Positions 39,213 to 47,524 of a stretch of 64,000 bases of DNA are shown here, in pieces (positions within the stretch are counted from its first letter, which is position 1; each line of letters starts with the position of its first letter). Under the pieces are notes generated by a model. The model made no database searches and was not told where the DNA came from. It was given only the letters and a program-made list of their open reading frames with translations. The stretch comes from Halorussus salinus. Its GTDB lineage: Archaea; Halobacteriota; Halobacteria; Halobacteriales; Haladaptataceae. The stretch is taken from assembly GCF_004765815.2 (NCBI RefSeq), contig NZ_SBIS02000011.1:1-64000 (forward strand), written 5' to 3'. The position numbers were made by a program, and so were the translations under genes.

Positions 39213-39239
39213 GGGTGTCGCTTGAACGCCAGCGACCTT

Positions 39240-39338
39240 GAAGACTGGCGAGGCGTCCCGTCGTGAAGACTGGCGAGGCGTCCCGTCGTGAAGACTGGCG
39301 AGGCGTCCCGTCGTGAAGACTGGCGAGGCGTCCCGTCG
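39240..39338. repeat. Four tandem copies of a 25-bp repeat
   Basis: The unit is GAAGACTGGCGAGGCGTCCC plus GTCGT. Copies at 39240-39264, 39265-39289, 39290-39314 and 39315-39338 are identical except that the last lacks its final T. They lie between the divergent lipoprotein and SOUL genes. Since 25 is not a multiple of 3 the array is not coding. Confidence 0.85.
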
Positions 39339-42892: not shown

Positions 42893-43133
42893 GGGTTCCG
42901 TTTGGAGTTCGAGCCAGAAAATACAGTCGGAAGCGGGCGAGTCGTCCGCGACCGTTCGCGGGCCCGCGGTCGATTCGAGGAGACGAGAGACTGCGAGAGA
43001 CGCGTGAACGTATAGTGTAAATGTGAACTCACGGTGGAAATTTGAGCTTGTGGTGGAATCGTGAAACCGCCGTGAAGTCCCGAGCCACCGCCCCTACGTC
43101 AGATTCGTCACAGATGTTTTCGAGACGAGCGAG
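42893..43133. other. Region between ALDH and CHAT gene
   Basis: The ALDH promoter should lie just right of 42892. From 43065 the CHAT frame is already open with high GC3 and plausible protein sequence, but no start codon before TTG 43134. An in-frame TGA stands at 43062-43064, and a GTG frame (43023) runs into it. CGTATAGTG near 43009 is TATA-like. Confidence 0.4.
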
Positions 43134-45068
43134 TTGGAACTCCCCTACATCGTCATGTCGTACGTCAGAGACGGCGACGGCGAGGTGCTGGCCGACCTCG
43201 GCCACGACGCTTCGGCGGAGTTCCCGCCCGGTGCCTACCTCGTGGACCTGAGCGCACCCATCAAACTCTACCTCCGCGCGGAGGCCGGACTCCGCATCGA
43301 GTCGAGTACCGATTCGATGCGCATCGCGTTCGACCGCGAGACGACGGTCGAAATCGGCGCGCGGTCGTTCCACAAGTCACCCGCCGCGACGGTGACGACG
43401 ACCGACGACCCACACGACGTGATGGCCGCCGTCTCGACCCTCGGGTCGGTCCTGAAGACGACCACCTGTGAGCGGTCGTGGCCCACCCTCCGGGGCCACC
43501 CGCCCCACATCGAACGCGGCGACGAACTCGACGTGCCCGACGACCTCACGGTGCCGGACACGGGGGCGACCGTCGAGGTACCCCCGACCTACGACGCCAT
43601 CTACGCGGCCGCGCCGCTCGCCTACTACTTCGGGGCCGACCTCGTGGCTGGCGAGACGCCGCGTTTGACCGTCGGCGGGTTCGAGCGCCGCTTCGACGCC
43701 GACGACGAGTTCGAGGAGGACGTGGTGCGGACGCTGAAGCAGGCGTTCTTCCTCGATTGCGTCACCCGGACCGAAGGCTACTACCCCATCGAACTCGCCG
43801 ACCGAAACCGCCTCGAACCGCTGGTGGACGTGGACTTCGCGGCGCTGTACGACGCCCCCTTAGACGAGCAACTCTCGACGTACTTTTCGATTCCCTACGA
43901 GACGGTGGCCGAGGCGATGCCGTCGTGGCACCGCGTCGCCTACGTCCGCCCCGACCCCGAGAACGTCGAGTCGCTCCCGTACCTCGTCAACGACTTTTCG
44001 ATTCTCCGGACGCCTCCTCGGCCGAGCTACGACGAGACCGAGGAGATGCGCGAGACCCGCGACGCCATCGACCAGTTCAAGCGAACGCCCTCGCCCGACG
44101 ACTCGGACCAGCGCCCCGAGAGCGAGCGCGACACCGCCGCACGGCGCGGCGTCCCGCCGGTCGAGGAGTACGTCCAGATGCCGGACCACGACGACGCCCT
44201 CGAACTCGCGTGGGTCGGCGAGGGGACGCCGGTCAGTGGGACGAAAATCATCCCGGATGCGTACCGACACGAATCGACGGGCACGTCCGACGACGAGATC
44301 GAGATTACGGTCGTCTGCAACGACGAGGAGATGCGCGACGAGTGGGACGCGGTCGCGGAGATCTACGGCCCCCGAGAGACCATCTCGTTCGACCCGACCG
44401 TCCACTTCGACGTGACGACCGACGAACTTCGGGGACTCCTCCGGACGCCGACCGACCTGTTCCACTACATCGGCCACATCGACGGTCGCGGGTTCGAGTG
44501 TTCGGACGGCGTGTTGGACGCCAGAAACCTCGACGAGGTCGGGATGCGCGCGTTCCTCCTCAACGCCTGTCGGTCGCACAATCAGGGCGTCGCGCTGGTC
44601 GAGGCTGGCTGTCACGGCGGTATCGTAAGTCTCGGCAACGTCGGGAACGCCGCCGCCCTCGACCTCGGCGAGACGCTGACGAAACTGTTTCAGGCAGGGT
44701 TCAGCATCGGCGGCGCGCTCGCCATCACAGAGGAGGCGACCTTCATCGGGACCCGATACATTGCGGTCGGCGACCCCGGATTCACACTCGCACAGACCGA
44801 CGATATCATTCCACTGGTGTACGAGATAGAAGACAGCGATGAGTCTCCGTTATCGTTGACTGGATTCGGATATCCGACGCGAGATCACGCTATCGGGAGT
44901 ATCTCCACGACGTATCTCCACGATGGTCCACGTTTTCTATCGACCGGCCCGTACGATTTTGAAACAACCAAGGGACGTATCGAAGAGACACACAACAACA
45001 AACCGTACTCGCCTTTAATTGTTGACGGAGAATTGGAATTAGTTCACCAGTGGTTGGCCAAGCAGTAA
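43134..45068 (+). CDS. CHAT-domain (caspase-like) protease with haloarchaeal N-terminal region
   Basis: The C-terminal part matches CHAT peptidases: His448 in LFHYIGHIDGRGF, Cys479 in FLLNACRSH, then GGIVSLGNVGNAAALDLGET, LFQAGFSIGGALAI and YIAVGDPGF. The N-terminal 340 residues are an uncharacterised region with APIKLYLRAEAGLRI. Residues 300-345 form a charged linker. The last 100 codons are clearly AT-richer than the rest. TTG 43134 is the only start before an upstream in-frame TGA at 43062, so the real N terminus may be damaged or differ. It faces a 45-aa membrane peptide gene, 2 bases beyond its stop. Confidence 0.8.
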   Translation: MELPYIVMSYVRDGDGEVLADLGHDASAEFPPGAYLVDLSAPIKLYLRAEAGLRIESSTDSMRIAFDRETTVEIGARSFHKSPAATVTTTDDPHDVMAAVSTLGSVLKTTTCERSWPTLRGHPPHIERGDELDVPDDLTVPDTGATVEVPPTYDAIYAAAPLAYYFGADLVAGETPRLTVGGFERRFDADDEFEEDVVRTLKQAFFLDCVTRTEGYYPIELADRNRLEPLVDVDFAALYDAPLDEQLSTYFSIPYETVAEAMPSWHRVAYVRPDPENVESLPYLVNDFSILRTPPRPSYDETEEMRETRDAIDQFKRTPSPDDSDQRPESERDTAARRGVPPVEEYVQMPDHDDALELAWVGEGTPVSGTKIIPDAYRHESTGTSDDEIEITVVCNDEEMRDEWDAVAEIYGPRETISFDPTVHFDVTTDELRGLLRTPTDLFHYIGHIDGRGFECSDGVLDARNLDEVGMRAFLLNACRSHNQGVALVEAGCHGGIVSLGNVGNAAALDLGETLTKLFQAGFSIGGALAITEEATFIGTRYIAVGDPGFTLAQTDDIIPLVYEIEDSDESPLSLTGFGYPTRDHAIGSISTTYLHDGPRFLSTGPYDFETTKGRIEETHNNKPYSPLIVDGELELVHQWLAKQ

Positions 45069-45070
45069 CT

Positions 45071-45208
45071 TTACGGGCCGCTACTTCCGCCACCCATACC
45101 TGCGAGAACGTTGCCGGACTCCACGAGGAGAAGCACGAGCAACCACGCAAGGTGTACCGCCGTTTTGCTACTGGTAACGCTTTCGACCGTATTTCTGACA
45201 ACGGACAT
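45071..45208 (-). CDS. 45-aa single-span membrane peptide ending in Gly-Pro
   Basis: ATG 45206-45208 opens a peptide with a polar N terminus (MSVVRNTVESVTSSKTAVH), one hydrophobic helix (LAWLLVLLLVESGNVLA) and a glycine-rich tail GMGGGSSGP. It resembles short haloarchaeal peptides (DUF7503 type, from memory) that share the helix and a terminal GP. It is convergent with the CHAT protease gene, separated by 2 bases, and has the same AT-rich composition as that gene's 3' end. It is a candidate substrate, regulator or partner of the protease. Confidence 0.6.
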   Translation of the reverse strand: MSVVRNTVESVTSSKTAVHLAWLLVLLLVESGNVLAGMGGGSSGP

Positions 45209-47395: not shown

Positions 47396-47473
47396 GTCGC
47401 GCTTCGGTCTGCTCGTGGCGGTTCGTGGCTCCTCGGAAGCCGCGATTCGAGAGCGTTCTCGTCGGTTACGGAG

Positions 47474-47524
47474 CGAGCGCATCTTCACCGACCACGGAAC
47501 GAGCGCATCTTCACCGACCACGGG
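47474..47524. repeat. Direct repeat, two copies, period 26 bp
   Basis: CGAGCGCATCTTCACCGACC followed by ACGG occurs at 47474 and again at 47500. The surrounding 47396-47748 has no gene. It also holds GGTGCTGTGCG and a GACTCCGTGAAGTC inverted repeat that resemble motifs near 32100. Confidence 0.6.

Follow-up and report, generated by a model that had tools for sequence, protein, structure and literature searches.

A candidate polymorphic recognition cassette formed by a CHAT protease gene and a Gly-Pro-ended peptide gene in haloarchaea

The window, the whole 64,000-nucleotide stretch of Halorussus salinus DNA analysed here, carries a CHAT (caspase-like) protease gene facing a small gene for a peptide that ends in Gly-Pro. 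Judging from the sequence patterns of the two families, the locus is probably a polymorphic ligand-sensor recognition cassette, in which the variable Gly-Pro peptide would be read by a variable C-terminal domain of the CHAT protein. The features of the locus are as follows.

42978..43119, no strand: genome-unique segment where the syntenic relative L002 has the CHAT promoter and the initial ~52 codons
43134..45068, + strand: readable part of the CHAT (caspase-like) protease gene, a 644-aa frame opening with TTG; an in-frame ATG follows at 43155
43134..44003, + strand: conserved CHAT N-terminal domain, residues 1-290, without a Pfam name (block RSFHKSPAATVTTTDDP...SWPTLRGHPP)
44475..44477, + strand: codon of His448 (FHYIGH), putative catalytic residue
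44568..44570, + strand: codon of Cys479 (LLNACRS), putative catalytic residue
44814..45065, + strand: hypervariable, beta-rich, AT-shifted CHAT C-terminal domain, residues 561-644, proposed sensor domain
44814..45100, no strand: contiguous hypervariable cassette of CHAT tail, both stops and peptide tail
45071..45208, - strand: convergent 45-aa peptide gene, divergent DUF7503, with a Ser-Gly-Pro end
45101..45208, - strand: peptide residues 1-36, conserved N-terminus and hydrophobic segment, closed by a signal-peptidase-like V-L-A site
45074..45100, - strand: variable peptide tail GMGGGSSGP, uncharged, with a C-terminal Gly-Pro; proposed mature ligand

The open reading frames, their convergent strands and the 2-bp gap between the stop codons are all as the sequence-only reading had described them, and the two residues that it had singled out, His448 and Cys479, are correctly placed and invariant in 75 of 75 homologues.

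The two families and their pairing

The CHAT product has the His/Cys pair and the caspase-like fold of the family, with a Pfam CHAT (PF12770) match of 17.6 bits that falls below the gathering score of 24. A paralogue in the same genome, with its neighbours in the frame, scores 25.7 bits, and family profiles built from relatives recover both the window CHAT and the window peptide. CHAT is the sole Pfam domain of the protein, no SAVED, TPR or CRISPR domain being found by Pfam; the pair had no match in NCBIfam or among the PADLOC defence models, and a PDB sequence search with the CHAT protein returned no relative. The fold was taken from an AlphaFold2 model of the full-length syntenic ortholog L002, 87% identical to the window CHAT, which comprises a beta-rich N-terminal domain, the CHAT domain and a beta-rich C-terminal domain (pLDDT 89, pTM 0.90). 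In a Foldseek search with this model, the CHAT part matched a SAVED-CHAT protein and separase (PDB 8tl0, 5fby, 5fc2; E ~1e-6) and also gingipain, while other matches were unconvincing. The C-terminal domain modelled alone likewise gave a confident fold (pLDDT 87), for which the structure search found no solved relative (best E 0.18). From the invariant His/Cys pair and the fold, the product is predicted to be an active, cytoplasmic caspase-like protease.

The peptide, by its position, its length, its layout of basic residue, transmembrane segment and Gly-Pro, and its family profile, is a divergent member of DUF7503, to which Pfam assigns no function (PF24335). Its Pfam match reaches 15.4 bits against a cut-off of 27, with relatives scoring up to 81 bits, and its E-value is ~6e-19 with a family profile that includes the window peptide itself. 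In the alignment, the consensus reads MS-(6-8)-YLAEHP[RK]M-x-G-[VA]-LFT-LLLLL-[ST]-Q-A-G-x-[VA]-A-A, followed by 6-7 variable residues and Gly-Pro. The Gly-Pro forms the C-terminal end in 126 of 128 peptides (chance ~0.005 per gene), two being without it, and the codons for Gly, Pro and stop are mixed, indicating that the constraint acts on the protein. The signal peptidase I (-3,-1) rule is satisfied in 115 of 128 peptides, with a predicted mature length of mostly 8-9 residues, and of the 1121 residues in the predicted mature tails only 15 are charged, an unusual figure for haloarchaea. Most peptides conserve the HP[RK] motif ahead of the transmembrane helix, and an N-in/C-out orientation is predicted from the basic residue that precedes the hydrophobic stretch. 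Conservation of the hydrophobic part exceeds that of an ordinary signal peptide, and this part may therefore remain in the membrane. Positions -38 to -27 upstream of the peptide starts are AT-rich, which would fit a TATA box of the gene's own and a leaderless or short-leader transcript, and Rfam gave no RNA element match at the locus. We also considered a translation-arrest peptide (Gly-Pro-stop) and rejected it, since the Gly, Pro and stop codons are mixed, the residues before Gly-Pro vary, and the motif is internal in the repeat protein described below.

Of the 293 genomes sampled, 268 have CHAT relatives and 249 have DUF7503 peptides over the cut-off. Such peptides are absent from every CHAT-less genome among those listed (there are 25 CHAT-less genomes in total, five of them outside the listing; another profile search names two more, G173 and G221), and the co-occurrence is strong (Fisher p ~1e-24). 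When 105 distinct loci were selected by the peptide list alone, 104 had a convergent CHAT stop within 260 bp, most of them within a few bases; the exception, L191, has its CHAT gene ~1 kb from the peptide. The sequence-only reading had made its module idea depend on CHAT homologues being accompanied by short Gly-Pro peptides, and they indeed are. In the H. salinus genome, nine profile-detected peptides each face a CHAT gene, and a tenth CHAT gene (L115) faces a peptide that the profile missed, found by position and also Gly-Pro-ended. No peptide was detected adjacent to the eleventh CHAT gene, whose relatives face a thioredoxin-like gene.

Relatives were found in Halorussus, Haladaptatus, Haloarcula, Haloferax, Halococcus and other genera, with up to ~ten paralogous pairs per genome and some on haloarchaeal plasmids; the chromosomal presence of the module in haloarchaea is near-universal. 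Outside this group there were four weak matches, all in one other family; a single one of them has the His motif, and the Cys motif was found in none of the four. Searches of phage records and IMG/VR found no CHAT-peptide genes, and a viral or provirus origin was rejected on these zero matches. The only candidate for a conserved third gene was a HalX-type response regulator, which neighbours the module in 19 of 122 loci (e.g. L076, L253, L267, L118); these belong mostly to the Haloferax/Haloferacaceae lineage and probably reflect shared synteny, and the candidate was rejected. Elsewhere in the H. salinus genome, a stretch of 6 kb contains two CHAT-peptide pairs arranged tail to tail (C3:124441-130404; CHAT+/peptide-, peptide+/CHAT-), and a CRISPR-like array with the repeat CTTCAACCCCACAAGGGTTCGTCTGGAAC and a period of ~66 adjoins a pair on C7 near 193800 (L109 1737-3063).

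A hypervariable stretch across two 3' ends

We compared 174 locus pairs with a protease-domain identity of at least 0.9, all of them between species. In these pairs, the CHAT N-terminal domain (0.92), the protease domain (0.95) and the transmembrane part of the peptide (0.97) are conserved, while CHAT residues 562-620 share an identity of 0.48 and the six peptide residues before Gly-Pro 0.63. The difference in rate between tail and core on which the sequence-only reading had also made its module idea depend (0.48 versus 0.95 for the protease domain) is present. The break is sharp, at CHAT residue ~560 in each of the six clades listed, where identity drops from 0.82-1.00 to 0.27-0.74, and the glycine, proline and tryptophan scaffold residues are retained within the variable tail. 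At the DNA level, identity falls from ~0.9 to ~0.45 over the tail and the peptide 3' end and returns to ~0.95 in the peptide 5' part. As the genes are convergent and nearly abut, the variable 3' ends of both merge into a single stretch of ~300 bp flanked by conserved sequence.

In five of these clades, the protease domain has 0.26-0.39 synonymous differences per site, the N-terminal and transmembrane part of the peptide 0.20-0.26 and the tail 0.60-0.81, and saturation is confined to the ~300-bp stretch, with conserved DNA on either side. Saturated synonymous sites between conserved flanks mean that the tails far exceed the rest of the genes in age, which would be expected from exchanged or long-maintained alleles; fast amino-acid change alone would be insufficient. 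The earlier suggestion that the protease tail and the peptide were exchanged together accordingly needs redrawing: it fits the CHAT tail and the last ~9 peptide codons, and does not extend to the N-terminal and transmembrane part of the peptide, which is conserved like the CHAT core. No tail shares more than 0.68 identity with one outside its own core clade (core identity <0.75), so that exchange looks confined to close relatives.

Base composition, which had been read as a low GC content common to protease tail and peptide, bears this out for the tail (0.492 in the last 84 codons against 0.668 in codons 1-560) and only partly for the peptide gene (0.583). In 62 of 62 peptide-linked homologues, GC drops from the CHAT core to the tail, by 0.12 on average. 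The shift is therefore old and class-wide and by itself no proof of a recent exchange in the window copy, and recent horizontal exchange was rejected as its specific cause.

The CHAT tail and the peptide tail vary in step. Within clades, peptide tails are identical in 68% of comparisons with a CHAT tail identity of at least 0.75 (n = 25) and in 0% of those below 0.4 (n = 81). Partial Mantel tests of CHAT tail against peptide tail, given the N-terminal and protease domains, were positive in six clades (p = 0.0085, 0.04, 0.07, 0.02, 0.08 and 0.03; combined 4e-5), and a seventh, smaller clade of four members showed no coupling. As the two tails lie so close together, joint exchange alone (hitch-hiking) could yield this covariation.

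CHAT genes lacking the peptide served as a control. In 13 Haloarcula genomes, a CHAT paralogue without a Gly-Pro peptide has identities of 0.944 in the protease domain and 0.928 in the tail, whereas the peptide-linked CHAT of the same genomes has 0.960 and 0.472. However, the tail is variable too in a Halorussus CHAT clade that has no peptide gene next to it (identity 0.31, against 0.74 in the core), and variability is thus not strictly dependent on a neighbouring peptide; this thioredoxin-linked clade may have lost its peptide or may use one in trans. Its members (L008, L009, L011-L016, L018 and, in the H. salinus genome, C3:43042-45168) face a gene for a thioredoxin-like protein (WGADWCGDC). 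A second haloarchaeal CHAT subfamily (HYIGHC, LNACGSY; L277-L281, L286, L288) is mostly peptide-less; opposite one of its genes (L281) is a longer, divergent peptide with the same Gly-Pro end. At L287, a tandem CHAT gene pair (FVGHVTD, LNGCRSYEQ type) has no Gly-Pro peptide.

In two species of one genus (G198 and G259), the convergent site of the peptide, 4-bp overlap included, is occupied by a tandem-repeat protein (L030 3396-3962, - strand, and L118, in G198; L117 in G259), and neither genome has a DUF7503 match among those listed. A neighbouring HalX-type regulator suggests that this is the same locus. The protein consists of 13 units of TADGNSGGISGP, or of 6 units of TADGNGSGISGP and one degenerate unit, the last ending in ISGP-stop, and it is without a hydrophobic segment, a signal peptide or the HP[RK] motif, one version being without any basic residue. 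The 13 units differ pairwise by 435 synonymous and 0 non-synonymous changes. As the units end in ISGP and differ only synonymously, the Gly-Pro tail appears to be the selected unit and the hydrophobic part to be dispensable.

Proposed mechanism and alternative explanations

We propose that the small gene encodes a precursor of ~44 residues whose N-terminus is conserved and which contains a hydrophobic segment resembling a signal peptide, and that its last 8-9 residues, uncharged and Gly-Pro-ended, would be the variable ligand, an active role suggested by the sequence pattern. The tail would be released or exposed outside the cell, and the ~84-residue CHAT C-terminal domain, varying in step with it, would be the simplest reader. 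A matching peptide, once bound, would either activate the protease or keep it inactive, the direction, the trigger and the outcome being conjectural, and the result could be self/non-self or density recognition ahead of a caspase-like effector. As the variable stretch lies between conserved flanks, homologous recombination within these flanks could swap lock and key jointly. A signalling, immune or death role for the pair is plausible. We put forward only tentatively the more specific idea of an archaeal pherotype/allorecognition system wired to cell fate, in which the variable domain of the caspase-like protease reads a secreted Gly-Pro peptide typed by species or strain.

An alternative is an intracellular guard or antitoxin, in which the Gly-Pro tail of the peptide would restrain CHAT at the membrane until viral interference freed the protease to kill or arrest the cell, and an arms race with virus-encoded decoys would drive the matched variability. 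CHAT proteases participate in known defence systems, and the nearest solved fold is a SAVED-CHAT filament; the up to ~ten paralogous pairs per genome, some of them plasmid-borne, would suit such a role. An intracellular ligand is argued for most strongly by the repeat protein that replaces the peptide: it carries no export signal, and its soluble, multivalent nature could suit an inhibitor in the cytoplasm. For an exported ligand, the strongest points are the positive-inside pattern and the (-3,-1) site, and the conserved basic residue before the transmembrane segment together with the uncharged tail favours a tail outside the cell. Furthermore, the pair has no PADLOC match and is absent from phage records and IMG/VR, and its near-universal chromosomal presence is unlike the patchy occurrence of typical defence genes. 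We thus regard a guard or antitoxin as rather unlikely.

Mere genomic linkage, whereby the adjacent ends of the two genes evolve fast under weak constraint in AT-rich convergent 3' DNA without any joint function, would account for the AT-rich 3' ends and for the concentration of variation around the stops. This seems very doubtful, as the tail keeps its glycine, proline and tryptophan scaffold and folds confidently, the peptides retain Gly-Pro in nearly all cases and have uncharged tails, the peptide-less Haloarcula CHATs keep conserved tails, and the pairing persists across the order. A protease-effector pair, in which CHAT would cut the peptide near HP-R/K and the freed helix would permeabilise the cell as a miniature analogue of the gasdermin pathway, draws on the conserved HP[RK] and on the nearest solved structures, separase and gingipain, which cut after Arg, and is highly improbable because the replacement repeat protein has neither transmembrane segment nor HP[RK] (nor, in one version, any basic residue), the variable and invariant features of the peptide lie at its opposite end, and the coupled variable tail is left unexplained.

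Relation to known systems and state of the window copy

Polymorphic peptide quorum-sensing loci include Staphylococcus agr, PlcR-PapR and the phage arbitrium AimR-AimP. Such loci resemble the pair described here in having a short precursor with a variable C-terminal signal, an adjacent receptor gene varying in step (a receptor role that is proposed for CHAT) and a variable stretch bounded by conserved DNA, as in B. subtilis ComQXP (PMC4408185). Unlike ComQXP and agr, the pair has no histidine kinase, and no ComQ-like modifying enzyme was found in it. The exported precursor with a variable C-terminal peptide of RRNPP/arbitrium systems is a pattern that the haloarchaeal peptide fits, its export being predicted, whereas Pfam finds only CHAT and no TPR/HTH receptor. 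The caspase-like protease as partner, the convergent genes and the archaeal hosts set the pair apart from all of these peptide quorum-sensing loci. With the CHAT family (PF12770; separase, SAVED-CHAT, TPR-CHAT/Craspase) it shares the His/Cys pair and the caspase fold, but its large unnamed N-terminal domain and variable C-terminal domain differ from the named members. Like the CHAT protease of bacterial gasdermin systems, it adjoins a membrane-associated partner, although this partner is a 44-aa peptide without a gasdermin match (Pfam, PADLOC) and the variability lies in the tails.

To our knowledge, a CHAT protease and a variable Gly-Pro peptide joined in a 3'-to-3' exchange cassette have not been described as a system before, and a literature search, with most subscription papers outside its scope, found nothing published on DUF7503 or on CHAT genes of haloarchaea or Haloferax. 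The cassette may thus be an undescribed recognition or signalling system, possibly controlling a death-type protease. If so, a caspase-like protease would be under polymorphic peptide control in nearly all haloarchaea, Haloferax included, and the 3'-to-3' layout would be a simple means to hold lock and key together through recombination. Strong caspase-like activity has been reported in Haloferax volcanii, with no gene homologue known (PMC3615174), and the gene behind this activity, as well as how archaea recognise kin or density, would become testable. The secreted signal in a quorum-sensing study of H. volcanii was a small molecule that survives proteinase K (PMC12240190), and we therefore do not equate the Gly-Pro peptide with it.

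The window copy itself has lost its 5' end. In its relatives, the protein begins ~57 residues further upstream, and the conserved segment at their N-terminus is missing from the window CHAT, which matches the family profile at positions 53-692 only, whereas the other listed copies in this genome start at 1-4. The 142 bp at 42978-43119, present in no sampled relative, stand in for ~218 bp of the L002 locus, so that the promoter, the start and the first ~52 CHAT codons are gone. Along the window branch, 59 synonymous and 34 non-synonymous changes were counted; constraint on the remaining CHAT is thus not visibly relaxed, suggesting that the loss is recent or tolerated. The window CHAT copy may be inactive, or may be shortened, with the peptide intact. 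Elsewhere in the window are a perfect tandem repeat of 4 x 25 bp (39239-39338) and a 26-bp near-duplicate (47468-47523).
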